From positions 1 through 39,465 of the forward strand of contig VGRX01000008.1 of the NCBI GenBank assembly GCA_016875215.1: a stretch of 39,465 nt of DNA, written 5' to 3'. The notes below the pieces were generated by a model, which saw only the letters and a list, made by a program, of their open reading frames with translations, was not told where the DNA came from and made no database searches. A program made the translations under genes and the position numbers. Positions 3,928 to 32,247 of this stretch are shown piece after piece; the stretch's first letter is position 1, and every line of letters begins with the position of its first letter. The stretch comes from Deltaproteobacteria bacterium. GTDB taxonomy: Bacteria > Myxococcota_A > UBA9042 > CAIXZC01.

Positions 3928-6822
3928 TTGCGGACGGATGCGGAAGTGGGCGAGCGACCGAGTGTGGAGGAGAAGGTGGACGAAGCGAAGAGGCCGGCTG
4001 CAGCCGTGACCTGGGCCGGGCTTGGGCTGGTGGCCCCGTTGATCCTGGTGTTTCTGATCGAGACTGGGGCGTTCAAGGCGCTCGAGCTTCGTGCAGTGAC
4101 GGGGGAGCTCTCGGTCGTGCAGTTCGTCCAGGCCTGGTCGTCCGACGTCGCTTTTGCGCTGGTGTTGGGCCTGCTGTTCGCGGTTCCGTTGTCCAGTCGG
4201 CTGCGGGTCGTGGCGGTACCTGCGGGCATTGCCTGGTTCCTGCTGCTGCTGGTGACGCTGTTCCTGACCGGTGTGAGCCATGGTTTCTTCCTTGCCACGG
4301 GGGCGACGTTCTCATACAGCAGCCTGGAGTTCTGGCTGCGGAACTTCGGCTCGACGGCAGCGGTGGTTGGCAGCGAGCTGACGGTGGGGCGCTGGCTGCT
4401 TGCGCTCGGGCAGGTTGCACTCGCCGTTCTGGGCATGGCCATTCCGCTGCTTCCTCCGGTTCGCAGGCGGCTGGTGGCGCTGGGCGGGTGGTCCGGGCGA
4501 AGGACGATTGCCGCCGGCATCGTCGGGGCTCTTCTTGTCGTGGGCCTGTGGCTGCTTCCTCCTCCGTCCGGTCAGGCCATGGTCGTCTCCCGCTGCGTGG
4601 TGCTGGACATCGCAGCGGACATGCTGCAGGAGAGCCTCCTGCCCGAGGAGACGGTGGCCATCACGGAGCAGGAGCGGCTCGACAGCTCGCTGGAGCTCCG
4701 CTCGGTTCCGGACAAGCCACGGCTCAACATCGTGCTGGTCATGTTCGAGTCGCTCAACTGGAAGTCCTCGGACGTGTACGTCAAGGGGGTGAACACGACG
4801 CATTTCCTTGCCGAGCTGGCGCGTGACGGGTGGGTCGTCGAGCACCAGTACTCAGTGGTCCCTCACACAACCAAGGCGCTTGTGTCCGTCGTCTGCGGCA
4901 TCTACCCGTACCTGGACACGGAGCCGCTGGAGACCACTCCGGACATCCTTCCCAGGCGCTGTCTGCCGCACCTCCTGCGCAGCGCGGGGTACAGGACCGG
5001 GTTCTTCGCACCGGTGGCCAACTTCGAGCATCGCAACCAGCTCATGGCGAATACGGGATTCGACACGATCCGGCTGCTCGACGACATGCCGGTGGAGGGG
5101 TTCGAGGAGACCAACTACTTCGGCCGGGAGGAGAGGGTCATGCTCCAGCCCTCCCTGGACTGGGTCGAGTCGGTCCGGGGGCAGCCGTTCCTGCTGACCT
5201 ACCTGACCCTCATGAGCCACCACAACTACGTTGTCCCGCAGTCCTACCCGTACACGATGTATCCCACCGAGGACCTGGACCAGCGCAACTACCTGAATGC
5301 CGTCAAGTACACGGACGAGTTCCTGCGGGACGTGTTTGCCGGGTTCGAGCGGATGGGGCTGCTGGAGGACACGGTGTTCATCATCGTGGGCGACCATGGC
5401 GAGGCGTTCGGCGAGCACGGCCGTCGCCAGCACGATCTGATCATGTGGGAGGAAGGGCTTCGCTCTGCTGCGGTGCTTTACAATCCCAGGCATCTGGGGG
5501 GGCCGGGCGTGATCAAGGGGTTCCGGTCGCACCTCGACCTGGTGCCGACCGTGCTGGAGCTTGCCGGGCTCGAGCTGGACAAGGGGGAGTTCCTGGGCCG
5601 GAGCCTGCTCCAGGCGGTCCCCGAGGACCGCCAGCTCTTCTTCTCCTGCTGGTTCAAGCGGCGGTGCATGGCGATGCGGGAGGGGCCGATCAAGTACATC
5701 TACCACTTCGGTCTCAAGCCGATGGAGGTCTACGATACCAGCGTCGACCCTTTCGATACCGACAACCTGGCGTTTACCGGTCCCTACCAGTCTGCGCTCC
5801 TCGACGAGAAGGAAGAGGCCATGCAGCGGTGGAATCGGGTGGTGAACCAGCAGTACGAGGAGTGGGGGAGCAGGCTCACCGAGGGGGTGGTGTCCGATTC
5901 CGAGCCCGAGGTGGCGCGCCGGCTGGAGGCCGACTTCGCAGGGAAGATCCGGCTCGTGGGATGCGACGTCACGCCTCCCACCGTTCGTGCCGGCGAGGAC
6001 ATCCAGGTCCGCTACGTCTTCCAGGCCCTGGCAGAGATGCCCGCGTCCACCGCGTTCTTCGTCCACTTCACCATGCCCGGCGAGAAGTTCTTCAACGCGG
6101 ACCACGTCCCGGGCCGAGGTGCGTGGCCGCTCGAGAAGTGGGAGGCCGGCAAGTACTACGTCGACGAGCACGTGATCCACGTGCCCGGTACCTGGCGCGG
6201 AGGGGAGGCCCGGCTTCTGGTCGGGTTCTGGGACAAGGCCAGCCGCAAGCGGCTCTCCGCCCGGTCGGAAGGCCCTGTGGAAGACGACCGCGTCGAGGTG
6301 GCCCGCATCCGCGTCAAGGCCGGACTCGTCAGGACCGGCCTTTCCCTCGACGAACGGAGGGCAAAGGCGGGGCGTTTCATCAGCTTCGACAAGCCGCCGA
6401 TGGACGACGCGCTCTCGGCCACGTTCGGCGGCAAGGTCGAGCTGTTGGGAATCAACCGCTCCCGGATGGATGTCAAACTGGCCGGAACGGTCGAGATGAG
6501 CTACCTGTTCCGGGCAGTCACCGAGCTCCCCAAGGGATGGCGCCTGACCGTGAAGCTCCGCCAGGAGAGCGGGGCCGAGGTGGACGGAGACCACGTTCCG
6601 ATCGGCGGACTGTACCCGCTCGGGGACTGGCGGGAGGGGGAGTATGTCGTGGACCGGCACCCGATCCACATCGACATGCATCGCACCAGGCCGGGGACCT
6701 ACGGCGTCTGGCTCGGGATCACGGACGGCCGCAAGCCGGTAACGGTGGAGGCCCAGGGGCTCGATGTCGATTCCACGCAGCGGGTCCGGCTCGGCACCGT
6801 GACCATAGCGAACACCGAGTGA
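3928..6822 (+). CDS. LTA-synthase-like membrane sulfatase/phosphotransferase with two C-terminal beta-sandwich repeats
   Basis: A 964-residue protein. Residues about 25-215 carry four or five membrane helices. Residues about 270-560 are an alkaline-phosphatase-superfamily (PF00884) domain of the LtaS/phosphoethanolamine-transferase kind. It has the metal-site start NIVLVMFESLN, a PHTTKAL segment (T314 or T315) where LtaS has its nucleophilic threonine, and the GDHGEAFGEHG metal motif. There is no C/S-x-P-x-R formylglycine motif, so it is not a true sulfatase. The C-terminal 300 residues hold two repeats of one fold (about 675-770 and 830-950), each with G-K-(I/V)-x-L-x-G, a D-H-V-P element, P-L-x-x-W and a final LVGFWD or VWLGITD. 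It probably transfers a phospho-headgroup to an envelope glycan or lipid (inference). The TTG start directly follows a stop and lacks a clear ribosome site, so the true start may be a few codons downstream. Confidence 0.8.
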   Translation: MRTDAEVGERPSVEEKVDEAKRPAAAVTWAGLGLVAPLILVFLIETGAFKALELRAVTGELSVVQFVQAWSSDVAFALVLGLLFAVPLSSRLRVVAVPAGIAWFLLLLVTLFLTGVSHGFFLATGATFSYSSLEFWLRNFGSTAAVVGSELTVGRWLLALGQVALAVLGMAIPLLPPVRRRLVALGGWSGRRTIAAGIVGALLVVGLWLLPPPSGQAMVVSRCVVLDIAADMLQESLLPEETVAITEQERLDSSLELRSVPDKPRLNIVLVMFESLNWKSSDVYVKGVNTTHFLAELARDGWVVEHQYSVVPHTTKALVSVVCGIYPYLDTEPLETTPDILPRRCLPHLLRSAGYRTGFFAPVANFEHRNQLMANTGFDTIRLLDDMPVEGFEETNYFGREERVMLQPSLDWVESVRGQPFLLTYLTLMSHHNYVVPQSYPYTMYPTEDLDQRNYLNAVKYTDEFLRDVFAGFERMGLLEDTVFIIVGDHGEAFGEHGRRQHDLIMWEEGLRSAAVLYNPRHLGGPGVIKGFRSHLDLVPTVLELAGLELDKGEFLGRSLLQAVPEDRQLFFSCWFKRRCMAMREGPIKYIYHFGLKPMEVYDTSVDPFDTDNLAFTGPYQSALLDEKEEAMQRWNRVVNQQYEEWGSRLTEGVVSDSEPEVARRLEADFAGKIRLVGCDVTPPTVRAGEDIQVRYVFQALAEMPASTAFFVHFTMPGEKFFNADHVPGRGAWPLEKWEAGKYYVDEHVIHVPGTWRGGEARLLVGFWDKASRKRLSARSEGPVEDDRVEVARIRVKAGLVRTGLSLDERRAKAGRFISFDKPPMDDALSATFGGKVELLGINRSRMDVKLAGTVEMSYLFRAVTELPKGWRLTVKLRQESGAEVDGDHVPIGGLYPLGDWREGEYVVDRHPIHIDMHRTRPGTYGVWLGITDGRKPVTVEAQGLDVDSTQRVRLGTVTIANTE

Positions 6823-6877: not shown

Positions 6878-9085
6878 ATGTCCGAGCGCCGCAAGATCCT
6901 GATCCTCAATCCGCCGCAGGAGGTCGATTCCGACTTTATCGACTACCCGCATTTCACCGGTCTGCCCGCCTGGTACCTGGCGGAGAGGCTGACGGGCTGC
7001 GGACACCACGTGCACGTCCTCGACGCGCTCGCCGTGCGCGGTGCGGACTACTTCCCGCTCAGGAACGAGCGGGGGTTGTTCGGTGTTCCCCACGTGTCGT
7101 TGCTCGAGCCGTTGCGGGACGCGGATTTCGACGTGGCCGTGATCCACTTCACCCCGTTCGTCCTTTCCCGGCGAAGCGAGGGGCTCGCCTACCTCCTGCG
7201 CCGGATGCGGCAATGGCGTCCGCACTCACTCCTGGTCGGAGCGGAGCTGTACACCGGGGGCATGCACCGCGTCCCGACCGAAGGGGTCCGGCTGCGGTCC
7301 GACTACCCGGAGCTCGACCGGTTCGTGAGCCTGGAAGGGGAGCGGACCCTGCCCAACGTCGTGTTGGAGACGAAGAACGCGGTTCCCTTCCTGGTGCCGG
7401 GCGAGGTACCGGACGCAACGCTTCTGGCCGAATGCTCGGTTCCTTCCTTCTCATCGGACTGGCTTGCCGGCTCACGAGCCTTCCTCGATCGGGTGGGTCG
7501 GCTTGCCAAGCTCCGCCAGTACGCAGTGGACGGCAGCGCCTTGCCCGTGCACTTCTCCAGGGGCTGCCCGTTCTCGTGCTCCTTCTGCACCAGCCCGTAC
7601 CGCAACTACAGGGCCGTTCCGCTGCCGCAGGTCGAGACGTTCCTTGCAAGGGCCAGGGTAGCGGGCATCGAACGCCTCTTCGTCCTGGACGACGCTGCCA
7701 ACGTGCGAAAGGACTTCCCCGAGCTCCTGGCGATGGTCGACAACGCGGGGATGAGGCTCGTTCTTCCCAACGGCCTGCGGGCCGACCTGCTCGACCGGGA
7801 GACCGTGTCCGCACTGTCCCGGGTGACCGGGGAGCTGACGGTGTCCGCAGAGAGCGCGTCCCCGCGAGTGCAGCGGGAGCTGGTCGGCAAGAGCGTCACG
7901 GTCGACCAGGTGCGGCAGGTCGCACAGTGGTGCAGCGAGGTATCGCTGCCTCTTTTGGTGCACTGGACGGTCGGTTTCGAGACCGAGACACGGGAGGAAG
8001 CCCTGGCAACGCTCGAGGTTGCCCGCACGATGCTCGACGACTATGGCGCCCGGCCTCTCGTCCAGTTCCCCACCCCCCTGCCCGGGACGCGCCTGGCCGC
8101 GGCCACCGGGACCGGACGCAGCACGAAGGCCATGCAGCACGAGCCGACCTGGACCCCCATCGGCGTCGAACCGGACGAGTTCGTCCGGGCCGTGTCGCTG
8201 CTGAGGGCTCGGGCCAGCCAGTCCCGAGCGGCCAAGGTCATCGTCAACGTCACCTACCGCTGCAACAACCACTGCGTGTTCTGCGCAGTCGGCAACCGGA
8301 GCCAGCAGGACCTCCCCGCAGACGAAATCCGGAGGATTCTCGAACGCCATTGGGACCAGGGAATCCGGCAGCTCGACCTGGACGGCGGAGAGCCTACGCT
8401 GCATCCTGATCTGTTCGAGATCATCCGTTTCTCCGTGGACAAGGGGTTTGCCCCGATCAACGTGACGACCAACGGGCGCCGCATGGCCTACCCCGAGTTT
8501 GCCCGGGCCCTGCTGACGTCGGGAATCACCGGCCTGCTCATCTCGCTGCACGGTGCCAGCGCCCAGGTGCACGATGGAATCACCGGGTCGCCGGGCAGCT
8601 TCGCAGAGACCGTGCAGGGGCTCCGCAATGCCGTCCGCCTTGCTCCGAAATCGGTCGACTTCGGCGTCAACACGACCTTGAGCACCCGGAACTTCGAGCG
8701 GCTGGACGCGCTCGTCGAGCTGCTGGCCGGCCTGTCGGTCCCGCGGCTCAACATCCAGTTCCTGACCCCGTTCGGCCGGGCGGCAGCCGAGCTCGTGCCC
8801 GATCCGGACGAGGCGGCAGCGGTGGTACGTCGGGTCATCGAGAGATGGCGGGACCGGATGGCATTCCAGGTCGTCAACCTCCCCTACTGCCACCTTCCCG
8901 GGCTGGAGGAGTACGTGGCCCAGGACCTGGGCAAGCTGTCCCGCACCATGGTCTTCGTCACCCGGGAGGAGGTGAACCTGTATCGCTACCTGGCGCAGAC
9001 GCGGCGGTACGACGACTCCTGCCGGGGCTGCCTCTACCGGGTTGCCTGCGACGGCCGCTACGACTTCGCGGAGGTGCAGGATTGA
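6878..9085 (+). CDS. Double-headed radical SAM protein (two complete radical SAM domains)
   Basis: A 735-residue protein with two separate 4Fe-4S/S-adenosylmethionine domains. Residues 1-200 look like a B12-binding-type Rossmann region (KILILNPPQ, then VAVIHFTPF) but lack the usual D-x-H-x-x-G cobalamin signature. The first radical SAM domain has C230-PFS-C234-SF-C237. The second starts near residue 455 with C462-NNH-C466-VF-C469 and has the SAM-contact motif DGGEPTLHPD and the strand VTTNGRRMAYPE. The C-terminus has a SPASM/twitch-like cysteine cluster, SCRGCLYRVAC, that could bind another cluster. The ATG is preceded by GGGGGAGG. The next gene overlaps by 4 bp, so the two proteins are made together. 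The substrate is unknown. Confidence 0.85.
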   Translation: MSERRKILILNPPQEVDSDFIDYPHFTGLPAWYLAERLTGCGHHVHVLDALAVRGADYFPLRNERGLFGVPHVSLLEPLRDADFDVAVIHFTPFVLSRRSEGLAYLLRRMRQWRPHSLLVGAELYTGGMHRVPTEGVRLRSDYPELDRFVSLEGERTLPNVVLETKNAVPFLVPGEVPDATLLAECSVPSFSSDWLAGSRAFLDRVGRLAKLRQYAVDGSALPVHFSRGCPFSCSFCTSPYRNYRAVPLPQVETFLARARVAGIERLFVLDDAANVRKDFPELLAMVDNAGMRLVLPNGLRADLLDRETVSALSRVTGELTVSAESASPRVQRELVGKSVTVDQVRQVAQWCSEVSLPLLVHWTVGFETETREEALATLEVARTMLDDYGARPLVQFPTPLPGTRLAAATGTGRSTKAMQHEPTWTPIGVEPDEFVRAVSLLRARASQSRAAKVIVNVTYRCNNHCVFCAVGNRSQQDLPADEIRRILERHWDQGIRQLDLDGGEPTLHPDLFEIIRFSVDKGFAPINVTTNGRRMAYPEFARALLTSGITGLLISLHGASAQVHDGITGSPGSFAETVQGLRNAVRLAPKSVDFGVNTTLSTRNFERLDALVELLAGLSVPRLNIQFLTPFGRAAAELVPDPDEAAAVVRRVIERWRDRMAFQVVNLPYCHLPGLEEYVAQDLGKLSRTMVFVTREEVNLYRYLAQTRRYDDSCRGCLYRVACDGRYDFAEVQD

Positions 9086-9957
9086 TCGACATCATCATGG
9101 GATACGAGTGCAACGTGCAGTGCGACTACTGCACGGTGACGCGGGAGATGCGGACCCGGAACCTGGACGGCAAGGCCATTGCCGCCGCACTCGAGAGAGG
9201 TGCCCGGGAAGGGCTCACCGCCGCTGCTTTCGGCGGAGGCGAGCCCACCATCCGCAAGGACCTTCCGCGTCTGGTCAAGCTCGGGCGCACGCTGGGATAC
9301 ACGACGGTGAAGATCTCCTCGAACGGGCTGATGTACGCGTATCCCGAATACGTGGAGCGCCTGCTCGAGGCCGGAGCGAACCTGTTCCACCTGGCTCTGA
9401 TGGGGTGGAACAGGGCCATGTACGCTCGGATCATGGGTCGTGAGGAGTACTATGACCTGGTCAGGACCGGTGTTGCGAACCTGGTCTCCCGGGGGGCCGT
9501 CGTCGTGGGCGACGTCATCATGAAGGCCGACACGTACGAGGCGCTTCCCGATACCGTCGAACACTGGGCCGAGCTTGGAATCGAGCGGTTCGTGTTCTGG
9601 CTGATGTCGCTGACCGACCGCGTCCGGGATGCCCGGGACAGCCTGGTTCCGGTCAGTACCATGCGGCCGTTCATGTTCGAGGCTTTCGAGGTGGGACGGA
9701 GGCGGGGGATCCCGGTCTTCTCGCGGCACGTCCCCCGGTGCATGCTGCCCGGCTACTGGGAGCACCTGTGGGACGTGCGGGAGGACCGCGTGCTCGTCGT
9801 GACGCCGGAATCGACCTTCTGGCTGTCCGAGTCGCGCATTACGGCCAACACCCGCGTTGAAAAGTGCGAGGCGTGCGTGGTAAAGGGGGAGTGCATGGGG
9901 ATCCGGCGGGACTACCTCGAGAACGTCGGCGATCACGAGGTCTCTCCCATCTCCTGA
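9082..9957 (+). CDS. Radical SAM protein with C-terminal CxxCx5C cluster motif
   Basis: A 291-residue enzyme whose cluster ligands come very early: C10-NVQ-C14-DY-C17. It has the SAM motif FGGGEPTIRKD and the strand ISSNGLMYAYPEY, both close in sequence to the second half of the preceding protein. The C-terminus CEACVVKGECMGIRRDYLE resembles SPASM/twitch auxiliary-cluster sites, and a further cysteine lies in RCMLPGYWEH. The start is TTG 9082, overlapping the previous stop (TTGA) and preceded by GGAGGTG. An ATG at 9097 is also in frame but has poorer spacing. It is presumably co-translated with its neighbour. No function can be named from sequence. Confidence 0.82.
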   Translation: MIDIIMGYECNVQCDYCTVTREMRTRNLDGKAIAAALERGAREGLTAAAFGGGEPTIRKDLPRLVKLGRTLGYTTVKISSNGLMYAYPEYVERLLEAGANLFHLALMGWNRAMYARIMGREEYYDLVRTGVANLVSRGAVVVGDVIMKADTYEALPDTVEHWAELGIERFVFWLMSLTDRVRDARDSLVPVSTMRPFMFEAFEVGRRRGIPVFSRHVPRCMLPGYWEHLWDVREDRVLVVTPESTFWLSESRITANTRVEKCEACVVKGECMGIRRDYLENVGDHEVSPIS

Positions 9958-9989
9958 GCGGGACCGCTTCGAACGGGGGCGTTGGCAGC

Positions 9990-11378
9990 ATGCGCGTGGC
10001 ACTTGCCCGATACGTCCGGACCTCGGACAACTACTTCTTCGACCTGTTCGATGCGGCTGCTGCCGGGGCCCTGAACCGGGCCGGGCATTTCGCCGTCGTG
10101 GCGGAGCGCACCGCACTGGCCGGGTTCGACGAGGACGACCTGGTCGAAGGGCTCGTCTCGTTTCTTTCGGATTTCGCCCCCCGTCTCGTGCAGCTCTCCT
10201 ACCTGCCGAGCCAGGTGCTGGCCCGCCGGGTCAAGGAGGCCACCGGGGCAGCGATCGTGGCGGTCGGCAGCCGCCTCCTGCTGGAGTGTCCCTGGGTCGA
10301 CTACGTGCTGTCCGAGCCGGACCCTCTGGCCCTCCTCCAGCTCGTCGAGGTGCTCGAGGGGAAGCGCAGCCCGGGCGAGGTCGCTGCGCTTTCCTGGCGT
10401 GACGGAGAGCAGGTCCGGACCTCAGAGACGGGGCTGCACGCCATGCACGAGATCTTCTCCCGCTGCCCCGTCGACTACGATGCCTTCTTCCGCATGGGAC
10501 CCGGCCGTCCGGCCGAGATCCGCAAGCACATCGCCGGAGACTGGGGGTGCACCTACCGGCATGCCCGAGGACCGGTGCTGCCTCCCGGGTGTCCCGCCGG
10601 CCAGGTTCATTCCGGAGGCTGCACGTTCTGTCTCAGGCCGGCAGCGCACCCGCTCGAGTGGGAGCTCAAACGCGACATGCTGGCCGGACAGATCGATGCG
10701 GTCGTGTCCGCCTTTCCCGCAATACGGAAGCTCATCCTGATCGACGAGCATGCCCTGAGCTTTGCCGACGACCTGGCCCGCCTCGTGCTGACCCGGCCGC
10801 TCGATGGAGTCGACCTGCTCCTGTCCGGCCGCCTCGACCACGTGGCCCGCTACCGGGGGCCGCTCGAGACCGCACTCTCCATGCTCGAGGGAAGGAACAC
10901 GCTGAGGCTGTACCAGTTCGGGATCGAGAACCTGGCCGACTCGGTCCTCGAACGCTACAACAAGGGAATCCGGTTCGAGGACATCCTCAGGGCCTGCGCC
11001 ACGATCCGCGAGCTGTCCTCCGCTCATCCGAACCTCTGCATCGAGCCGTCGTTCGGGTTCATCCTGTTCGACCCGTGGACCACCCTGGACGAGCTGAGAG
11101 AGAACGCAGAGCGCGCCCGACTCGTCGATCTCGTCCGCCTGCGCGGGGATGCCCCGCACACGTCGCTTCGCCTCTTCCCGGAAACGCCGCTCTACTGGAA
11201 GGCCGTCCACGACGGGCTCCTGACCGGCACCATCGATGACAACGACTTCGGTTACTCGGTCGAGTCGGGATGGCAGTTCCGCCACGCCGACACCGCCGCG
11301 GTGTTCGACCGCCTCAACCGCTACGAGGGGGACGACGAGCCGTGGGACGTCCTGGCGAGGCTGGTGGACCGAGGGTGA
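9990..11378 (+). CDS. Radical SAM-like protein with atypical Cx9CxxC cluster motif
   Basis: A 462-residue protein. The N-terminal ~150 residues form an alpha/beta region like the B12-binding-type domain of B12-radical SAM proteins (ALARYVRTSDNYFFDLFDA, LVQLSYLP, IVAVGSR). The cluster region reads C201-PAGQVHSGG-C211-TF-C214, a C-x9-C-x2-C spacing instead of the usual C-x3-C-x2-C; Elp3 uses the same spacing. C187 is another nearby candidate ligand. The downstream radical SAM barrel features (YQFGIENLADSVLERYNKGI, SFGFILFDPWT, LRLFPETPLY) match those of B12/MiaB-like radical SAM proteins. It lies 32 bp after the preceding radical SAM gene in the same direction. The substrate is unknown. Confidence 0.75.
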   Translation: MRVALARYVRTSDNYFFDLFDAAAAGALNRAGHFAVVAERTALAGFDEDDLVEGLVSFLSDFAPRLVQLSYLPSQVLARRVKEATGAAIVAVGSRLLLECPWVDYVLSEPDPLALLQLVEVLEGKRSPGEVAALSWRDGEQVRTSETGLHAMHEIFSRCPVDYDAFFRMGPGRPAEIRKHIAGDWGCTYRHARGPVLPPGCPAGQVHSGGCTFCLRPAAHPLEWELKRDMLAGQIDAVVSAFPAIRKLILIDEHALSFADDLARLVLTRPLDGVDLLLSGRLDHVARYRGPLETALSMLEGRNTLRLYQFGIENLADSVLERYNKGIRFEDILRACATIRELSSAHPNLCIEPSFGFILFDPWTTLDELRENAERARLVDLVRLRGDAPHTSLRLFPETPLYWKAVHDGLLTGTIDDNDFGYSVESGWQFRHADTAAVFDRLNRYEGDDEPWDVLARLVDRG

Positions 11379-15134: not shown

Positions 15135-16232
15135 ATGAGGCGGGTCGACACGACCGGGGTAGTCCCCATTTTCGACAAGGGAGAATCGAGCCGGGTGGAC
15201 GTGCGGCTGCTGGTCGAGCCTCCCCCGTGGATCGAGCCGGCACCGGGGCTGCGGTCCCTTGCCCGAAAGCTGGCTCCCGCGTTCTACCTGGATGTCGGCA
15301 ACGTCTGCAACCAGCGCTGCCTGTACTGTGCGGTCCCGCGGGAGAAGCTGTACCGCACGACGCTGACCGCGGCGCTCGACCCCCCGAAAGGCGCCGTGCT
15401 CCGCGGGTTCTCCACGGTGGCGCTCATCGGCGGAGAGCCGACGATCTGGCCCCACCTCCATGCTGCCTTGAGTCGGCTGCCGGAGCTGGGCGTGTCCCAG
15501 GTGATCGTGACGACGAACGGGCTCATGCTGGCCTACGAGGCGGAGCTGGACCGCATGCTGGCTTCGGGGGTGAGCGTGTTCGGTGTGTCGCTGGACGACT
15601 TCGACCCGCAGCGGCAGCGACGTCTGAGCCTTCGGGAGGACAACCCGGAGCTGCTGGAGCGGGCCGTGGGCCACCTCTCGACGGCCGATGCCGACACGTA
15701 CTTCTACACCGTGGTCACGTCCGAGCTGTGCGGCCGGGGGGAGTGGTTCGGCCGGCAGGCAGCGTCGGTCGCTTCCCGCTTCAAGCGAACGCCGGCGTTC
15801 TTCCTGGCAGCGCTCAAGCCGCTCGAAGAGGCGGCACGGCAGGCAGATCGGCTCGAGCTGTCCCTGGGCGATGCGATCGCCGAGGTCCGCGGAGTGGCCC
15901 GGGGATTGCGGCGGGACGACGGCCCCGCCCCGACCGGACAGGACGGTCGTGGCGGGCCGGAAGGTCGCGGGCGAGGCGCGGCGACGTTGGCTGTCCGGGA
16001 CTTCCCGCTCTGCACCCTGGGCGAGCTGCTGCCGCATTCGATGGATCTGCTGCACCGGAACGCCCCGCTGGACCTGGACAGCGGGCGGGTCGAGCCGTCG
16101 TGTCTGGCTTCGGACCGTACGTTCGTGGAGGCGTGCGGGCAGTGTGCCGTGCAGGCCTGGTGCCCCGCGATCTACAGGACCTGTCTTGCCCGTTTCGGCG
16201 CGGGCGGCTTTCGCTCAGTGGAGATCCCATGA
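15135..16232 (+). CDS. Radical SAM protein with C-terminal auxiliary-cluster motif
   Basis: A 365-residue enzyme. The 4Fe-4S motif is C-NQR-C-LY-C at about residues 59-66 (DVGNVCNQRCLYCAVPRE), the SAM motif is LIGGEPTIWPH, and the strand VTTNGLMLAYEAE follows. The C-terminus CGQCAVQAWCPAIYRTC resembles a SPASM/twitch cluster site, and FPLCTLGELLP supplies another cysteine. A Gly/Arg/Pro-rich insert (about 265-285) interrupts the C-terminal half. The CNxxCxYC, GGEPT and TNGxM-AY elements resemble the radical SAM proteins at 8.2-10 kb, suggesting paralogy. Its stop overlaps the epimerase start by 4 bp (ATGA). The substrate is unknown. Confidence 0.83.
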   Translation: MRRVDTTGVVPIFDKGESSRVDVRLLVEPPPWIEPAPGLRSLARKLAPAFYLDVGNVCNQRCLYCAVPREKLYRTTLTAALDPPKGAVLRGFSTVALIGGEPTIWPHLHAALSRLPELGVSQVIVTTNGLMLAYEAELDRMLASGVSVFGVSLDDFDPQRQRRLSLREDNPELLERAVGHLSTADADTYFYTVVTSELCGRGEWFGRQAASVASRFKRTPAFFLAALKPLEEAARQADRLELSLGDAIAEVRGVARGLRRDDGPAPTGQDGRGGPEGRGRGAATLAVRDFPLCTLGELLPHSMDLLHRNAPLDLDSGRVEPSCLASDRTFVEACGQCAVQAWCPAIYRTCLARFGAGGFRSVEIP

Positions 16233-17257
16233 AGGCCGTGGTCGTGGGGGGCTCGGGGTTCCTGGGGCGGCACGTGGTGAAGCAGCTTGCCGTTGCGGTC
16301 GGGGGAGGTCCGCTCGATCTCGTCTGCGCAGGGCGGAGCCTCCCCGACGAGCCGTTGCCGGGAGCGTTCGTCCAGGGAGATCGAACCGACCCGGACGTCG
16401 TGCGGGATCTGATGGAGCGCGGGCCCGACATCTGGATCGACCTGGCGCTCTTCGAACCGGCCGAGATGGAGCACCTCGTCGCTGCCTGGGAGCGGGCGGG
16501 CCGTGCGGTGAGGCGCTTCGTGGTCGCAGGCAGCATCGCGGAATACGGGCTGTCCCGCCGACACCGGCTGCCCGTGGCCGAAGATGTCCCTCTGGATGCG
16601 GAAGGAAGCTATGGCCGGGGCAAGGCCGAGGCGTGGAAGGTGGGCGAGCGGGCGGCAGCGAAGCGGGCCTTCCCGTTGAGCTGGGCCGTGCTGCCGCAGC
16701 TCTGGGGTTCCGGCGACCCGCACGGCCGGGACGCCCGCTGGATTGCCGCTCTCCTCCGGGGGGAGGCGATCCTGCTTCGCGGGAACGGACGGACCCTGCT
16801 TCCGGACGGATACGTGGAGACAGCCGCCGCCGCCATCGTGCACCTGGCATTCGCTCCGGGAGCGGACGGGGCTCGGGTGAACGTGGCCGGCCCCGCGACT
16901 CTCACCCCACTCTCCTATCTGAAGTGGGCTGCTTCGGCCCTCGGCCGCTCTCTGCGGGTGCTGCATGCCCATCCCGACATCGTTGCGGCAGCCGAACGGG
17001 TGACGTTCTCCTCGTTCCGGCCACCGTTCGGAGACTATGACTTCGGCCTCGACCTGTCGCACCTCTCCGCCCTCGGTTTTGCTGCCGGCATTCCGCCTGC
17101 CGAGGGGGTCCGGCGGACCGCACTCTGGCACGCATCCGCAGCCGGCAGGCGACTCGCCGAGCGAGCCGGCTGCCCTGCCGCTCCCGACTACGGCGCCGAC
17201 GAGCGTCGCATCCGGCAGGTCCTGGCCGGCGCGGTGGAGAGGCTCCATGCTGTATGA
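16229..17257 (+). CDS. NAD-dependent epimerase/dehydratase family protein
   Basis: A 342-residue short-chain dehydrogenase of the extended (nucleotide-sugar epimerase) type. It has the cofactor loop GGSGFLGRHV at the very N-terminus, VVAGSIAEYG as the serine strand and SYGRGKAEAW as the YxxxK catalytic pair. Sequence beyond the cofactor half is divergent, so the substrate cannot be assigned; a nucleotide sugar or other small hydroxy compound is likely. It overlaps the upstream radical SAM gene by 4 bp and the downstream TatD-like gene by 11 bp, so the three are translationally coupled. Confidence 0.82.
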   Translation: MKAVVVGGSGFLGRHVVKQLAVAVGGGPLDLVCAGRSLPDEPLPGAFVQGDRTDPDVVRDLMERGPDIWIDLALFEPAEMEHLVAAWERAGRAVRRFVVAGSIAEYGLSRRHRLPVAEDVPLDAEGSYGRGKAEAWKVGERAAAKRAFPLSWAVLPQLWGSGDPHGRDARWIAALLRGEAILLRGNGRTLLPDGYVETAAAAIVHLAFAPGADGARVNVAGPATLTPLSYLKWAASALGRSLRVLHAHPDIVAAAERVTFSSFRPPFGDYDFGLDLSHLSALGFAAGIPPAEGVRRTALWHASAAGRRLAERAGCPAAPDYGADERRIRQVLAGAVERLHAV

Positions 17258-18026
17258 TGTGCACTTCCATCCCACCGACGAGCCGCTCGTCCGGGACGTC
17301 CCGGCCGTGATGGAGCGTGCTCGTGCGGCAGGCGTCTCGGGCGGTCTTGCCGCAGGGTACGACCCGGATTCCTGCTGCCGCGTGCTGGAGCTGGCGGAGG
17401 CCGTTCCCGGCCTCGACGCCGCCGTCGGGTTCCACCCGTGGTTCATCCGCCCCGATCTGGACGTGCGGCAGCTCCGCCCCTGGCTCGCGCACCCGCGCAT
17501 CGTGGCCCTGGGCGAGATCGGCCTCGACGGCAAGGTCGAGGTCGACCCCGGGCTCCAGCGCAGGTACTTCGTGGCCCAGCTCGAGCTGGCTCGAGAGCTT
17601 CAGCTCCCCGTGGTCGTGCATTCCCGACACGCATTCCAAGCCACCCTGGACGCTGTGCGGGAAGTGCCCGGGGTCACCGGCATCCTGCACAGCTTCGGAG
17701 GCGCACCGGAGGTCGCGTCCCGGTTCCTCGACCTGGGGTGGTACTTCTCCCTCTCCGGCTCTGCCACCCGCCCCAATGCCCGCCGGGTCCACCGGCTCGT
17801 CCGCTTTCTCCCCGACGAGCGGATCCTGCTGGAGACCGATGCCCCGGCAATCGGCCTGGAAGGTGTGCCGCCCGAGCAGGTGGAGCCGGCCCACGTGCGC
17901 CACGTGCTGGTGGCGGTCGCTGCACTGCGAGGCCAGCCCCCCGACGCACTGGAGGCCCGCATCGCAAAGAACCTGAGCACGCTCTTCAAGGGCGGAATCG
18001 GCCGCACTGCACTCGGGGCGGAATAG
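17247..18026 (+). CDS. TatD-family metal-dependent hydrolase
   Basis: A 259-residue TIM-barrel amidohydrolase-fold protein. The metal ligands are visible: DVHFHP (HxH), LGEIGLD (Glu), VVVHSRHA (His), ILHSFGG (His) and LLETDAPAI (Asp). The length matches TatD DNases (3'-5' exonucleases), but here it is the third gene of an operon with a radical SAM protein and an epimerase. A hydrolytic step on a small molecule is therefore as plausible as DNase activity. The ATG is preceded by GGAGAGG inside the end of the previous gene. Confidence 0.85.
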   Translation: MLYDVHFHPTDEPLVRDVPAVMERARAAGVSGGLAAGYDPDSCCRVLELAEAVPGLDAAVGFHPWFIRPDLDVRQLRPWLAHPRIVALGEIGLDGKVEVDPGLQRRYFVAQLELARELQLPVVVHSRHAFQATLDAVREVPGVTGILHSFGGAPEVASRFLDLGWYFSLSGSATRPNARRVHRLVRFLPDERILLETDAPAIGLEGVPPEQVEPAHVRHVLVAVAALRGQPPDALEARIAKNLSTLFKGGIGRTALGAE

Positions 18027-27565: not shown

Positions 27566-28573
27566 TCATACCGATGGGGGGAACAGAGAAGCAAGCAGCT
27601 TCTCGGCAACGTCGTACGGCGAGGTTTTCCGAGAGACAAGCCGTCGGGAGATCCCCGAAGTGCGTTCGAGCTCGGCGAGGCGGCTCTCGAACTCCGCGGC
27701 CATGCGCTCCCGGAGCAGGGCATGGATGATGTCCGCAAGGCGGACCCGCTCGCGGCGTTCCCAGGCACCGGACTGGCGGATGGAATCGCCGTGGCGGTCG
27801 ATGGCCTCGGCCAGCTCTGCAATTCCCTCGTTGCGTGGGGCGACGGTCTTGAGAATGGGGATGCGAGCGGTCGTTTCGGGGGCCTGCTGAACGGGCCATG
27901 GATTGTTGTCAGTCCCGCGGTGATGCCTCAGCTCGGCCTGGGAAACGGTGATTTGCTGGATGGTCTCGAGCTCCGCGATGACTCGCTCGGCGCCGGGGCG
28001 GTCCGCCTTGTTGACTGCGAAGACGTCGGCGACCTCGAGCAGGCCGGCCTTCATGATCTGGATCTCGTCACCGAGCCCGGGCACGAGGACGACGACCGAG
28101 GTATGCGCGTTCCGGACGATGTCGACCTCGTCCTGGCCGACACCGACGGTCTCGATGAGGACCATGTCGAAGCCCATGGCATCGAGCACGGTGACGACAT
28201 CGGACGTGGAGCGGGAGAGTCCGCCGAGGTGACCGCGGGTGGCCAGGGAGCGGATGAAGACACCCGGGTCCGCCGCGTGACGCTGCATGCGGATGCGGTC
28301 GCCCAGGATGGCCCCGCCGGTGAAGGGGCTCGAAGGGTCGATGGCGACCACCCCCACGGTCCGTCCCGTGCTTCGGAATCTCTTGACCAGCATGTCCACG
28401 AGGGTGCTCTTGCCGGCCCCCGGATTGCCCGTGATGCCCACGATGTGCGCCCGACCGGTGTGCGGAAACAGTGCGGCAAGCTGGGCCCGTGCCGACGGAT
28501 CCCGGTCATCCGCAAGTCTCATCAGCCGGGCAGCGGCGCGAATGTCACCGGCAAGTATCTTCTCTACCAGCAT
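27566..28573 (-). CDS. meaB: MeaB/ArgK-family GTPase (methylmalonyl-CoA mutase chaperone)
   Basis: A G-protein chaperone that loads and protects adenosylcobalamin in methylmalonyl-CoA-type mutases. The 335-residue protein has the P-loop GITGNPGAGKSTLVD, the family motifs DPSSPFTGGAILGDRIRM and ETVGVGQDEVDI, and NKAD for guanine recognition. A C-terminal helical dimerisation arm follows. The ATG has GGGGAG just upstream, and a run of nine G (28601-28593) lies 20 bp before it. No mutase gene is in the window. It is 78 bp downstream of the UPF0210 gene in the same direction and may belong to the microcompartment operon. Confidence 0.92.
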   Translation of the reverse strand: MLVEKILAGDIRAAARLMRLADDRDPSARAQLAALFPHTGRAHIVGITGNPGAGKSTLVDMLVKRFRSTGRTVGVVAIDPSSPFTGGAILGDRIRMQRHAADPGVFIRSLATRGHLGGLSRSTSDVVTVLDAMGFDMVLIETVGVGQDEVDIVRNAHTSVVVLVPGLGDEIQIMKAGLLEVADVFAVNKADRPGAERVIAELETIQQITVSQAELRHHRGTDNNPWPVQQAPETTARIPILKTVAPRNEGIAELAEAIDRHGDSIRQSGAWERRERVRLADIIHALLRERMAAEFESRLAELERTSGISRRLVSRKTSPYDVAEKLLASLFPPSV

Positions 28574-28651: not shown

Positions 28652-30028
28652 CTAGTTCTTCACACTGGTGATGGGCGGCGGGATGCGCCCGGTCAGCCGG
28701 ACAAAACCCGCACAGGAGTATTGCGACACGGGCATGATCACGAGCTGCCCCAGCAGTCCGCCAAGGTCCACGACGTCCCCCGGCTTTGCATCCGGTACCG
28801 GCAGGATGCGGACCGCGGTCGTCTTGTTGTTCACCATGCCGATGGCCAGCTCGTCTGCGATGATTCCAGCGATGGTCTCGACCGGCGTATCGCCCGGAAC
28901 CGCCACCATGTCGAGCCCGACGGAGCACACTGCGGTCATGGCCTCGAGCTTCTCGAGGTTGATGCTCCCCCGCAGCGCTGCGGCCACCATGCCGGCATCC
29001 TCGCTGACCGGGATGAACGCACCGGACAGGCCGCCGACGGAAGTGGAAGCCATGGTGCCCCCCTTCTTGACCGCATCGACCAGCATGGCCAGCGCGGCCG
29101 TCGTGCCCGGGGCGCCGGTGGCCTCGACGCCCATCTCCTCGATGATGTCGGAAATGGAATCTCCGATGGCCGGCGTCGGCGCAAGCGACAGGTCCACGAT
29201 GCCGAACGTGACGGGCTCACCGAGCATGCCGGCAACCTCCCGGCCCACCAGCTCACCGGCCCGCGTGATCTTGAATGCCATCTTCTTGATCGTCTCGGCC
29301 ACCTGCGCCAGGTCGCCGAAACGCCCTTCACGCTTCATGCGCCGCAGCGCTGCCAGCACGACTCCGGGGCCGCTCACCCCGACGTTGATCACCGCGTCCG
29401 GCTCCCCGACGCCGTGGAACGCCCCTGCGATGAACGGGTTGTCCTCGGCCGCGTTGCAGAACACCACCAGTCGGGCGCACCCGGCCCCGTGCGCGGTGAG
29501 CTCCGCTGCCTGCTTGATCGACTCGGCCATCACGAGCACCGCGTCCATGTTGATCCCGGACCGTGTGGTACCCAGGTTGACCGACGAACATACCCGCTTC
29601 GTCGCTGCCAATGCCTGCGGGATGGACCTCATGAAGCGCATGTCACCGGTCGTGGCCCCCTTGTGGACCAGGGCCGAGTAGCCGGCGATGTAGTCCACTC
29701 CCACGTCCTGCGCCACCTGGTCCAGCACCCGGGCGACCGCAACGTACTCCTCGGTGCTCGACAGCCCCTCGCACACCAGCGACATGGGCGTCAGCGAGAT
29801 GCGCTTGTTCACGATGGGGATCCCGTACCGGTCCTCCACCTGAGCCGCACACTCCACCAGGCGGTGGGCCCGCTGGTACAGGCGGTCGTAGAGGAACCTG
29901 CACAGCGCATCCACCGACCCGTGCGGGGCATCCAGCAGCGACACACCGAGCGTGACCGTTCGGATGTCGAGATGCTCGGCCTCGATCATCCGGATAGTCT
30001 CGTGGATCTCGTTCATCGAGAAGAGCAT
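28652..30028 (-). CDS. UPF0210 (PFL-like fold) protein
   Basis: A 458-residue protein of the UPF0210/COG2848 family, described as having a pyruvate-formate-lyase-like fold but no known reaction. Family features are the [20 protein letters not shown] start, [71 protein letters not shown] and the ending [12 protein letters not shown]. The glycyl-radical RVxGY motif is not present; the C-terminal VRLTGRIP is only a faint echo of it. UPF0210 genes typically follow an ACT-domain (UPF0237) gene, as here with a 3-bp gap. Here the pair also follows four microcompartment shell genes, which is not the usual setting as I know it. Confidence 0.9.
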
Positions 30029-30031
30029 CGG

Positions 30032-30748
30032 TCACACCTTGTGCATGGACTTGAAGATGTTCTCGTGCATCACCAGGATCTGGGTCTGGCCGATGCGGAG
30101 CGCCTCGTCCTGGAGCCTCTCCTTGAAGATGCGGAACGACAGGTTGTTCTTCTCCAGCCCGTCGAGGTTCACGATGAAGATCATCGAGAAGTAGTCGGCC
30201 AGGATCACCTGGCTGATGTCGGCCAGGTCTCCACCGCACTCAGCGACGACGGCGGAGATGCGGGCGACGATGCCGGGACGGTTGTATCCCACGACCGTGA
30301 CGATGGCCCGGTTGCCGGTCGATTCCGGTCGAGACAGGTTGAGCATGGTCTCACGGCACTGCGCATCGAGCGAGAGACACACGGACTGGTCCATCGCTGC
30401 ATCCGCCTTGAGGAGCGGGGGGCCCGAGGATGGCTCCGCTGTCGGCGAGGGCGGCGAAACCGCGGGGGCAGCGGCCGCTGGAGGTGCTGCCGCGGCTCCT
30501 GAGCCGGCCGATGCTGCCGCACGCCGCGTCACCTCCTGCACCACGATGTCCTCGATGAGCTTCTCCAGCGCTTCGCTCTTCAGCGGAGCAGCGGCCCTGG
30601 GCGGCTCTTCGACCGCATACTTCAGCGTGATCCCCTTGCGGGAAGCGAACTCCCGGGCCCCGGGTGTCAGCAGCATGTCGCGCACCACCACGAAGGTGCC
30701 GTCCTTCTGCCCCGCCTCGATATCCTTCTCGGTCACTGCCTTCTTCAT
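30032..30748 (-). CDS. ACT-domain (UPF0237) protein with microcompartment-type N-terminal motif
   Basis: A 238-residue, three-part protein. Residues 1-45 (VTEKDIEAGQKDGTFVVV, then MLLTPGAREFASRKGI) match the short 'V-T-x-x-D-v...T-P-x-A-r-x-x-A...G-I' motif found in several microcompartment proteins such as EutT/EutQ- and PduL-type enzymes. Residues about 70-120 are an Ala/Pro/Ser-rich linker. Residues about 145-238 are a UPF0237 ACT domain (VVGYNRPGIVARISAVVAE, DISQVILADYFSMIFIV) that normally senses a small ligand. ACT/UPF0237 proteins I know are about 90 residues, so the N-terminal half is an addition. It lies 12 bp after the last shell gene and 3 bp before the UPF0210 gene, and may tether UPF0210 to the shell (inference). 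Confidence 0.82.
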   Translation of the reverse strand: MKKAVTEKDIEAGQKDGTFVVVRDMLLTPGAREFASRKGITLKYAVEEPPRAAAPLKSEALEKLIEDIVVQEVTRRAAASAGSGAAAAPPAAAAPAVSPPSPTAEPSSGPPLLKADAAMDQSVCLSLDAQCRETMLNLSRPESTGNRAIVTVVGYNRPGIVARISAVVAECGGDLADISQVILADYFSMIFIVNLDGLEKNNLSFRIFKERLQDEALRIGQTQILVMHENIFKSMHKV

Positions 30749-30760
30749 TTCGGCTCCAGG

Positions 30761-31102
30761 TTAGGCTTCATCCTGTGCTGCGGATTCGACATGGTAATGG
30801 TCTACAATCGCCACGACTGCGGCATCGATGGGCCGGGAAGGAAGCTTGCCGTCGGGCAGCTCCGGCTCGACGGCGACGCGGGCCGAGTGACCGTAGGCGA
30901 CGATGACGTCTTCCCCCGGTCCCGCACCGAGGACATCGGCAGCGACGACCCCGTCATACATGGTGTACGGCGTCGGCCGCACCAGCAGATGGGGAGCGAG
31001 ATCGGCCAGGTGGTACGGGCGCACGACCAGGAACTTCAGGCCGTGCAGACCTTCCCACTTGACCGTGGACCAGACCGTTCCGACCACTTTGCCCATGAAC
31101 AT
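30761..31102 (-). CDS. EutN/CcmL microcompartment vertex protein (fourth of four)
   Basis: Forms the pentamer that caps vertices of bacterial microcompartment shells. The 113-residue protein has the family start GKVVGTVWSTVKWEGLHGLK, a central GAGPGEDVIVAYGHSARVA (the G-x-G-x-x-V-x-x-x-x-G-x-x-A-R signature) and IDAAVVAIVDHYHVE at the end. The ATG at 31102 has GGAGG six bases upstream. It begins 1 bp after the stop of the preceding shell gene. It is the most conventional of the four and has no tail extension. Confidence 0.9.
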   Translation of the reverse strand: MFMGKVVGTVWSTVKWEGLHGLKFLVVRPYHLADLAPHLLVRPTPYTMYDGVVAADVLGAGPGEDVIVAYGHSARVAVEPELPDGKLPSRPIDAAVVAIVDHYHVESAAQDEA

Positions 31103-31103
31103 C

Positions 31104-31421
31104 CTAGTCCTCCCGCTCCTCGACTTCCTTACCGTCCTTTTCGACCAAAACGGCGTCCACGATGCGGGCGACGGCCGCGTCGACCAGCGTCCACCGGTTG
31201 TCCGGGGCAGCAAACACCGCCCGGGCACCGCTGCCCCAGGCCACCGCCACAGTATGCCCGATGCGGGCGCCAATGGAATCGAATGCCACGACGACTTCCC
31301 CGGTCGGAGTGCGCTTCTCGCCATCCTGTCCGAGCACGGCGACGAGCAGTGCCTTGCGCCCCTCGATGCGGGGGTTCTTGCGGGTCGCCCACACCTCGCC
31401 GACCACCCTGCCGAGCATCAT
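31104..31421 (-). CDS. EutN/CcmL microcompartment vertex protein (third of four)
   Basis: A 105-residue pentamer protein starting LGRVVGEVWATRKNPRIEGR, with IGARIGHTVAVAWGSGARAV and VDAAVARIVDAVLVE. The ATGATG at 31421-31416 overlaps the preceding stop by 4 bp, so it is translationally coupled. A Lys/Glu-rich C-terminus (EKDGKEVEERED) follows the domain. The R-K-N-P-R-I-E stretch is almost identical to the next gene upstream, indicating a recent tandem duplication. Confidence 0.9.
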   Translation of the reverse strand: MMLGRVVGEVWATRKNPRIEGRKALLVAVLGQDGEKRTPTGEVVVAFDSIGARIGHTVAVAWGSGARAVFAAPDNRWTLVDAAVARIVDAVLVEKDGKEVEERED

Positions 31422-31822
31422 GGCGTCCCCCTTTCCCCGCCGCCCCGTTCCTCGCCCCCTGTCATCCCCTCGTCCGCTCCGACCCGCACCAGGGTCGTCG
31501 GCTTGAACTGCGCTCTGAGCGCGAAGGGGCCGGGAGCAGCATGCTCGCATCCACGCTCGATCTCGACGCGGTCGACGATGGCCATGACCGAGGCTTCGAT
31601 GGGGCAGCGGTAGTCGCCTGCGACCCAGCGCCCCGGCTGGCCGACGCAGACCAGCACGTCCTGGCCCACCTCGGCCCCGACCTGGTCCACCGCGACGACG
31701 TGCTCGACGTCGTGACTCGGGTTGTACCAGAAATAGGGGCGCACGATGGCCAGCTTCAGGTTCTCGATCCTGGGGTTCTTCTTGGTTGCCCACACCGTGC
31801 CGACCAGGCGGCCGAGGATCAT
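31418..31822 (-). CDS. EutN/CcmL microcompartment vertex protein (second of four, C-terminal tail)
   Basis: A 134-residue pentamer protein. The domain (LGRLVGTVWATKKNPRIENL, VGAEVGQDVLVCVGQPGRWV, IEASVMAIVDRVEIE) is followed by about 40 extra residues (FALRAQFKPTTLVRVGADEG, then a Gly/Glu-rich end). The Q-P-G-R-W-V segment departs from the usual G-S-x-A-R loop near the pore, so pore chemistry may differ. Start and stop both overlap neighbours by 4 bp (ATGA). Confidence 0.87.
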   Translation of the reverse strand: MILGRLVGTVWATKKNPRIENLKLAIVRPYFWYNPSHDVEHVVAVDQVGAEVGQDVLVCVGQPGRWVAGDYRCPIEASVMAIVDRVEIERGCEHAAPGPFALRAQFKPTTLVRVGADEGMTGGEERGGGERGTP

Positions 31823-32247
31823 GCTCCACCTCCCTCGCCGTGCGGCGCGGTCCCGGAGGCCGCCGGTCCGGAACAAGCAGGCCTGCCGTTCGACCGGTCC
31901 GCTGGTGCAGTGCCGACGGGCTCATCCGCCAGCAGGTCCAGCTCGACGTGTGCGGAATCGACGATCGCCACGACCACGTCCTTGGTCGGCACTCCCGGGC
32001 CCAGCGTAAGGTCCCGTACCCGGCTCCCATGCGCCACGAGCACGAACTCCCCGATGCCCGCACCGAGCTGGTCGAGCGCGATGATGAGCCCGTCCTGGAG
32101 GTCGGGACGCTCCCCGTCGGCCGCGATGTCCGCAGGGGAGTGCCCGGACGCCACGGCAACCGGCCGCACGGCGAGCAGCTTGCGCCCGCCCAGCGAACCC
32201 GCCTCCTTGGCCCCCCAAACGGCACCGACCACACGGCACAGCTTCAT
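31819..32247 (-). CDS. EutN/CcmL microcompartment vertex protein (first of four, C-terminal tail)
   Basis: A 142-residue pentamer protein and first gene of the operon. The domain start is LCRVVGAVWGAKEAGSLGGR; the core LGAGIGEFVLVAHGSRVRDL and KDVVVAIVDSAHVELDLL complete the fold. A tail of about 35 residues, rich in Gly, Ala, Ser and Pro, follows and looks disordered. The ATG lies after GAGGGCGCGC. A promoter with a 20-nt leader is just upstream. Confidence 0.87.
   Translation of the reverse strand: MKLCRVVGAVWGAKEAGSLGGRKLLAVRPVAVASGHSPADIAADGERPDLQDGLIIALDQLGAGIGEFVLVAHGSRVRDLTLGPGVPTKDVVVAIVDSAHVELDLLADEPVGTAPADRSNGRPACSGPAASGTAPHGEGGGA

Follow-up and report, generated by a model that had tools for sequence, protein, structure and literature searches.

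A two-headed radical SAM protein of Myxococcota and its likely place in an expanded HxsA4-type system of His-Xaa-Ser peptide maturation

The best-known protein with two radical S-adenosylmethionine (SAM) domains is FbiC, a fusion of CofG and CofH that serves as the F0 synthase. Except for an F420 paper, nothing relevant on two-headed or tandem radical SAM proteins was found in the literature that we searched. Peptides with the His-Xaa-Ser (Hxs) motif "putatively rely" on HxsB and HxsC for their maturation, after Haft and Basu (PMC9062424). NCBIfam already lists the Hxs families by name, and no experimental study of any Hxs enzyme was found in the open literature searched. Here we analyse a window of 39,465 nucleotides, contig VGRX01000008.1 (C8) of a 5.9-Mb draft genome of a Deltaproteobacteria bacterium, which comprises 857 contigs and 84 stretches matching the profile PF04055. 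Three genes on the + strand of the window encode P1, a double-headed radical SAM protein of 735 residues (6878-9085), P2, a radical SAM protein of 291 residues with one auxiliary-cluster signature (9082-9957), and P3, a class-B-like radical SAM relative of 462 residues with a non-canonical Cx23CxxC motif (9990-11378). P1 shares with FbiC the presence of two radical SAM domains in one chain, but its heads are class-B-like and HxsC-like, and no F420 model (CofG, CofH) was among its 25 best NCBIfam matches. In Myxococcota, P1 and P2 are in our view likely to be working parts of an HxsA4-type His-Xaa-Ser system for peptide maturation, in an expanded form; we placed them there because of co-occurrence, gene linkage and the HxsA4, HxsB and HxsD genes of the same genome.

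We defined the presence of P1 by E <= 1e-60 and that of P2 by E <= 1e-45, and recognised Hxs genes with the NCBIfam models NF038313 (HxsA4), TIGR03978 (HxsB), NF038332 (HxsC4), TIGR03976 (HxsD) and NF038315 (HxsD-like). P1 was found in 84 of the 379 Myxococcota genomes, the named matches including Nannocystis, Polyangium, Plesiocystis and Enhygromyxa. HxsB and HxsA4 were each present in 82 of these 84 genomes and at least one of them in 83, the exception being G027, which is 67% complete. Among the 295 P1-negative genomes, 60 carried HxsA4 or HxsB and 44 carried HxsB. Additionally, HxsC4 was found in 27/40 P1-positive versus 2/40 P1-negative HxsB genomes sampled. P2 was observed in 75 genomes, 72 of which are also P1-positive, and in several the two proteins are fused; the refuting condition of the initial annotation, genes that never co-occur elsewhere, thus fails for this pair. 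In 37 of 89 non-redundant P1 loci, P2 lies inside the retrieved stretch, that is, within 10 kb of P1.

Used alone as a plain-sequence query of contigs, P1 gave no match, and its homologues were recovered with an alignment query. Among the best 80 loci of the contig scan, matches to both heads were labelled Myxococcota-type or unclear (some labels are plainly wrong), and archaeal and Patescibacteria-type matches cover the second head only. Two records titled Anaeromyxobacter dehalogenans and Klebsiella pneumoniae (L092, L107) carry the myxococcal P1 locus and match contigs of G026/G040; their titles look wrong.

Clustering of the neighbours of P1 loci surfaced HxsB-like and HxsD-like families. 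In the locus L096, HxsA4, HxsB, HxsC4, HxsD and HxsD-like, all above the NCBIfam cut-offs, form one run with K6, K4, P2, K1 and P1 (K1, K3b, K4 and C4b are our labels for further radical SAM families, and K6 is a radical SAM protein with a fused methyltransferase). A 17.1-kb stretch of G354 (L211) holds HxsC4, HxsA4, HxsB, HxsD-like, HxsD, K6, a peptide-beta-hydroxylase-like gene, P2, P1 and K1. The genes of P1, HxsD and HxsB overlap one another in G363 (L207), and HxsD, HxsB and P1 are consecutive in G216 (L206). HxsB lies less than 10 kb from P1 in 10 of the 65 longer loci, where about 0.4% would be expected for each (P ~1.5e-13), given our estimate of ~1.35 HxsB copies per genome of ~7.5 Mb. 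Linkage and co-occurrence of P1 and P2 with Hxs genes were thus confirmed, but in the genome of the window the two sets lie on separate contigs.

P1 and P2 are not HxsB or HxsC/HxsC4 themselves, as they reach 117.6 and 64 bits against a HxsC4 cut-off of 500. Judged by these scores, they would be additional Hxs components distinct from HxsC4. They share with the Hxs system its genomes and often its gene cluster, and the second head of P1 (H2) and P2 score best against the HxsC4/HxsC models, whereas the two-headed P1, the three-headed fusions described below and an extra radical SAM set outside the NCBIfam models matched set this system apart. P1, its three-headed forms and the association of P1 with P2 appear to be undescribed in the literature searched. 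The initial annotation of the locus held that its pathway could not be named. For P1 and P2 this has changed, as neighbourhoods and co-occurrence place them in the HxsA4-type system, and P3 is a family-specific addition; since no characterised Hxs enzyme was found in the literature searched, the three proteins do not all fall into a characterised pathway.

The genome of the window encodes Hxs genes of its own. Contig C42 carries HxsA4, HxsB, HxsD-like, HxsD and a K1-like radical SAM gene. Its HxsA4, of 119 residues, ends in AGHC(SHG)16SW and scores 105.6 bits against a cut-off of 55; HxsB (C42:10762-12165) reaches 552 bits against 370, HxsD 67.6 against 50 and HxsD-like 46.9 against 41. The order HxsD, HxsD-like, HxsB, HxsA4 is the same in two genomes of the same family. 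Contig C168 has an HxsC4-like gene, a second such gene (C4b) and a K1 gene truncated at the contig end, contig C78 begins inside a K4 gene, and contig C256 carries K6 with its methyltransferase. A precursor of a ribosomally synthesised and post-translationally modified peptide is indeed absent from the window, as had been reported, but an HxsA4 precursor is encoded elsewhere in the same genome.

In the tree of radical SAM domains, H2, P2, K1, HxsC4, C4b and K6 each form one group joining different genomes, this one included, and the groups of H2, P2, K1, HxsC4 and K6 contain members from Hxs clusters. The sole other C4b sequence is from G008, where it lies in a four-radical-SAM locus. K4 is likewise one group across genomes; the K4 of this genome is outside the tree and was assigned by BLAST (56%). 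Given their best scores against HxsC/HxsC4, we considered whether all heads radiated together from HxsC, but the tree gives no resolution at its deep forks. A conserved protein of ~400-430 residues with a hydrophobic start is encoded after K4 in several genomes, including this one (L203:770-1960, L180:7185-8486, L034:4393-5679). It had no Pfam match and may serve the Hxs system in processing or export.

The end of the precursor differs with the presence of P1. HxsA4 ends in SW in 51/51 P1-positive genomes examined and in QW in 30/35 P1-negative ones; two of the five non-QW exceptions, G033 and G041, are genomes that are incomplete, and P2 is present in G041 and G290. The HxsB tree has one deep, fully supported SW/QW branch, except for a long-branch second HxsB copy in L130, and the genomes of family f9, from the window's own class, lie on the QW side. 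As far as these sequences tell, P1 tracks the SW-type Hxs gene lineage and not the species group. The HxsB tree contains essentially one SW/QW split, so the Ser/Gln difference gives no causal proof, and a causal reading of it was set aside. What emerges is a two- or three-headed radical SAM enzyme tied to one Hxs branch with a recognisable precursor, which makes it testable which bonds form on (SHG)n, which head is responsible and why there are so many radical SAM centres. HxsA4 has between about 6 and 58 SHG repeats, and the number may differ between two copies within a genome (L095).

Several observations weigh against assigning P1 and P2 to the Hxs system. The co-occurrence P values carry no correction for phylogeny, and one event may account for the Ser/Gln correlation. 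The genomes G005 and G022 have an SW-type HxsA4, and P1 was not found in them at the threshold given above. In f5 loci, in most f6 loci seen and in this genome, P1 and P2 lie off the stretch that carries HxsA4. Finally, the HxsC4-like proteins of this genome score 334 and 277 bits (the C168 protein 306) against the HxsC4 cut-off of 500; in the domain tree they group with HxsC4 with support of 95/99.

P1 and P2 could instead synthesise or alter a distinct small molecule or cofactor needed by the Hxs pathway or by its hosts, and not act on HxsA4 at all. The closest solved relatives by sequence, AprD4 for head 1 (H1) and BlsE for head 2, are both small-molecule enzymes; in f5 genomes P1 stands alone with P2 located elsewhere, and the many P1-less Hxs systems counted above also suit such a role. 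However, P1 is directly coupled to HxsD-HxsB, inserted in full Hxs clusters, and follows the HxsB gene lineage. We regard the small-molecule alternative as rather unlikely and retain the Hxs system as the probable context of both proteins.

The architecture of P1 itself is conserved. Its two PF04055 stretches reach 126.7 bits together in a Pfam profile search, and full-length homologues occur in Myxococcota. Each head has its own cluster motif, C230-x3-C234-x2-C237 in head 1 (residues 230-237, 7565-7588) and C462-x3-C466-x2-C469 in head 2 (residues 462-469, 8261-8284). The terminal CxxCx5C, C715-x2-C718-x5-C724 (9020-9049), supplies auxiliary-cluster cysteines of head 2, for which C671 (8888-8890) is the likely fourth ligand. 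Both CxxxCxxC motifs together with C671, C715, C718 and C724 are invariant in 29 class-relative homologues and in the 49 of a broader aligned set, and a motif scan of the 62 full-length homologues recovered both motifs along with the terminal triad. Such conservation puts the architecture far beyond chance. Thus the description of P1 as two domains with separate CxxxCxxC motifs and a terminal cysteine cluster is correct, as is that of a genuine operon headed by a conserved two-headed protein.

An AlphaFold2 model of P1 (pLDDT 91.4, pTM 0.87) consists of a Rossmann region, barrel 1, barrel 2 and a small C-terminal part. The N-terminal Rossmann region, which resembles a cobalamin domain, spans about residues 1-205 (6878-7492) according to DSSP of the model. 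In a fold search against solved structures, the first half of P1 matched AprD4 and MgmA best, and TokK, TsrM, CysS and OxsB as well; the second half matched BlsE, SuiB and SkfB best. The sequence profile agrees with the fold search for those structures that it finds. Head 1 thus has a class-B radical SAM fold, a predicted N-terminal Rossmann region followed by a barrel with CxxxCxxC, in which cobalamin binding is putative. Even AprD4, the best match of head 1, is not known to depend on cobalamin. Head 1 shares the Rossmann region and the barrel with AprD4, MgmA, TokK, TsrM and OxsB, but identity is at most 18%, and in P1 it shares its chain with another complete radical SAM enzyme. Head 2 has a barrel and conserved terminal cysteines like those of PqqE, SkfB, SuiB and BlsE, but neither it nor P2 gave a SPASM match in Pfam, each having just four conserved auxiliary cysteines. 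MiaB was also among the structural matches, and heads 1 and 2 might act on RNA or on a housekeeping protein, like MiaB or RimO. The distribution of P1 is patchy and nested within Hxs-positive genomes, and a Pfam search found no TRAM or MiaB-specific domain in it, which makes such a role extremely improbable.

The gene layout at 6878-11378 agrees with the coordinates, frames and order given in the initial annotation. The TTG start of P2 at 9082 falls within the P1 stop (TTGA), and the claimed 4-bp coupling of the two genes is real; it recurs in two same-family genomes (L031, L032). P2 matches PF04055 with 74.6 bits and has the same cysteine scheme as head 2: C10, C14 and C17 (C10-x3-C14-x2-C17, 9109-9132), C220, and C262, C265 and C271 (terminal C262-x2-C265-x5-C271, 9865-9894) are invariant in 13 aligned sequences. 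Its orthologues adjoin P1 in the families f1, to which the window belongs, and f6.

The three sites H1, H2 and P2 are distributed differently over protein chains in other genomes. L108 (1133 residues), L152 (1079) and L153 (1082) each encode P1 and P2 in a single open frame that contains three CxxxCxxC motifs; three PF04055 stretches were found in L153. In G054, H2 is fused to P2 (717 residues) and H1 is separate (472 residues). In G059, a 1021-residue H1-H2-P2 protein without the head 1 cysteines is accompanied by a separate H1 of 470 residues. In G093, the head 1 cysteines survive and the head 2 cysteines are gone in a 778-residue paralogue, a 791-residue paralogue shows the reverse, and the P2 relative is distant (28% identical). 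Thus all three sites are retained in G054, G059 and G093, on differing chains. These three-headed fusions, the H2-P2 fusion and the complementary cysteine losses indicate that the sites behave as one three-site unit. Such natural head-swaps, with heads separate, fused or complementarily dead, already take a multi-site radical SAM enzyme apart for study. The complementary P1 paralogues of 778 and 791 residues, with one live head each, are encoded at L200:6305-8641 and L201:8627-11002 (Polyangiaceae contig of ACE_MYX1).

A model of a three-headed fusion (pTM 0.72) has a disordered linker of ~75 residues ahead of P2. This predicted linker fits P2 as a tethered rather than a rigid partner, and because of it we claim no fixed arrangement of P2 on P1.

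In the scheme that we propose, HxsA4, the short precursor ending in HC(SHG)nSW and encoded elsewhere in the genome, would be bound by HxsD/HxsD-like and modified by HxsB and HxsC4-like proteins, K1, K4 and K6 with its fused methyltransferase, together with P1/P2. H1, H2 and P2 would act on it in one complex. We are moderately inclined to see HxsA4 as the substrate of P1/P2. Judging from the predicted fold, head 1 would probably methylate by a radical route or functionalise a C-H bond in another way. Head 2 and P2 look like single-auxiliary-cluster enzymes of the HxsC/PqqE/SkfB type and would probably carry out oxidative reactions of the C-C, C-N or a similar kind on repeat side chains. Among the triceptide maturases, HaaB links His i to i+2 (C2(His)-Cbeta(Ala)) and MscB links Phe to Ser (PMC11002830). 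By analogy, these cyclophane enzymes suggest a His(i)-Ser(i+2) link for Hxs maturases generally, and a His(i)/i+2 or Phe-Ser type of linkage would fit His-Gly-Ser repeats, but HxsB and P1 belong to subfamilies other than those of these enzymes. Any particular bond ascribed to the heads of P1 or P2 would probably be wrong.

Tentatively, the three-site machine and five to seven further radical SAM enzymes working along the (SHG)n tail might yield a new kind of His-rich polymer, repetitive and heavily modified, that perhaps binds metal. If so, few peptide pathways described would be as rich in radical SAM enzymes, and the three-headed enzyme would represent a new architecture.

The initial annotation counted four radical SAM domains in the operon. 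Three of them stand, two in P1 and one in P2; the fourth, in P3, scores 26.5 bits against a Pfam cut-off of 29.5 and lacks CxxxCxxC. In the family alignment, the conserved C187, C211 and C214 form the Cx23CxxC of P3, so a count of four, on this sequence evidence, holds only with P3 taken as a non-canonical member. P3 is the third gene in L031 and L032 too, and only in family f1. It was rejected as a general partner, since a cysteine-module methyltransferase occupies that position in f6. Outside f1, a P3-like domain was found within other proteins. A second double-headed type (L082, L083, L084, L087, L106, L215) combines a P3-like part with GCPx...GCxFC spacing and a MoaA-like head. Another two-headed radical SAM protein of this genome, with SPASM and 992 residues, is encoded in an unrelated neighbourhood on contig C61 (L175:7546-10524).

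A lipoteichoic-acid-synthase-like gene of the sulfatase family (3964-6822) lies directly upstream of P1, and a flippase-like LPG_synthase_TM protein is encoded at 1874-2965, a homologue of which adjoins P1 in G002. Both would suit an operon that modifies lipids or envelope polymers. However, in the loci examined outside the family, neither gene was seen again directly beside P1, and we hold this role to be very unlikely. A full-length homologue of the sulfatase-family gene (30%) was seen at L078:5075-7987, near a distant P2 homologue of G040.

Further downstream (15135-18026, + strand), a radical SAM gene, an epimerase-family gene and a TatD-like hydrolase gene form a tight array that is unlinked to the Hxs set here. 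The radical SAM gene (15135-16232) was tried as an Hxs member and set aside, as it has no close match in Hxs clusters and sits on a long unplaced branch. On the - strand, four tandem EutN/CcmL (microcompartment vertex) genes occupy 30761-32247, with no shell hexamer gene noticed beside them in the window. They adjoin an ACT-domain gene (30032-30748), a DUF711 gene (28652-30028) and a GTPase-like gene (27566-28573).

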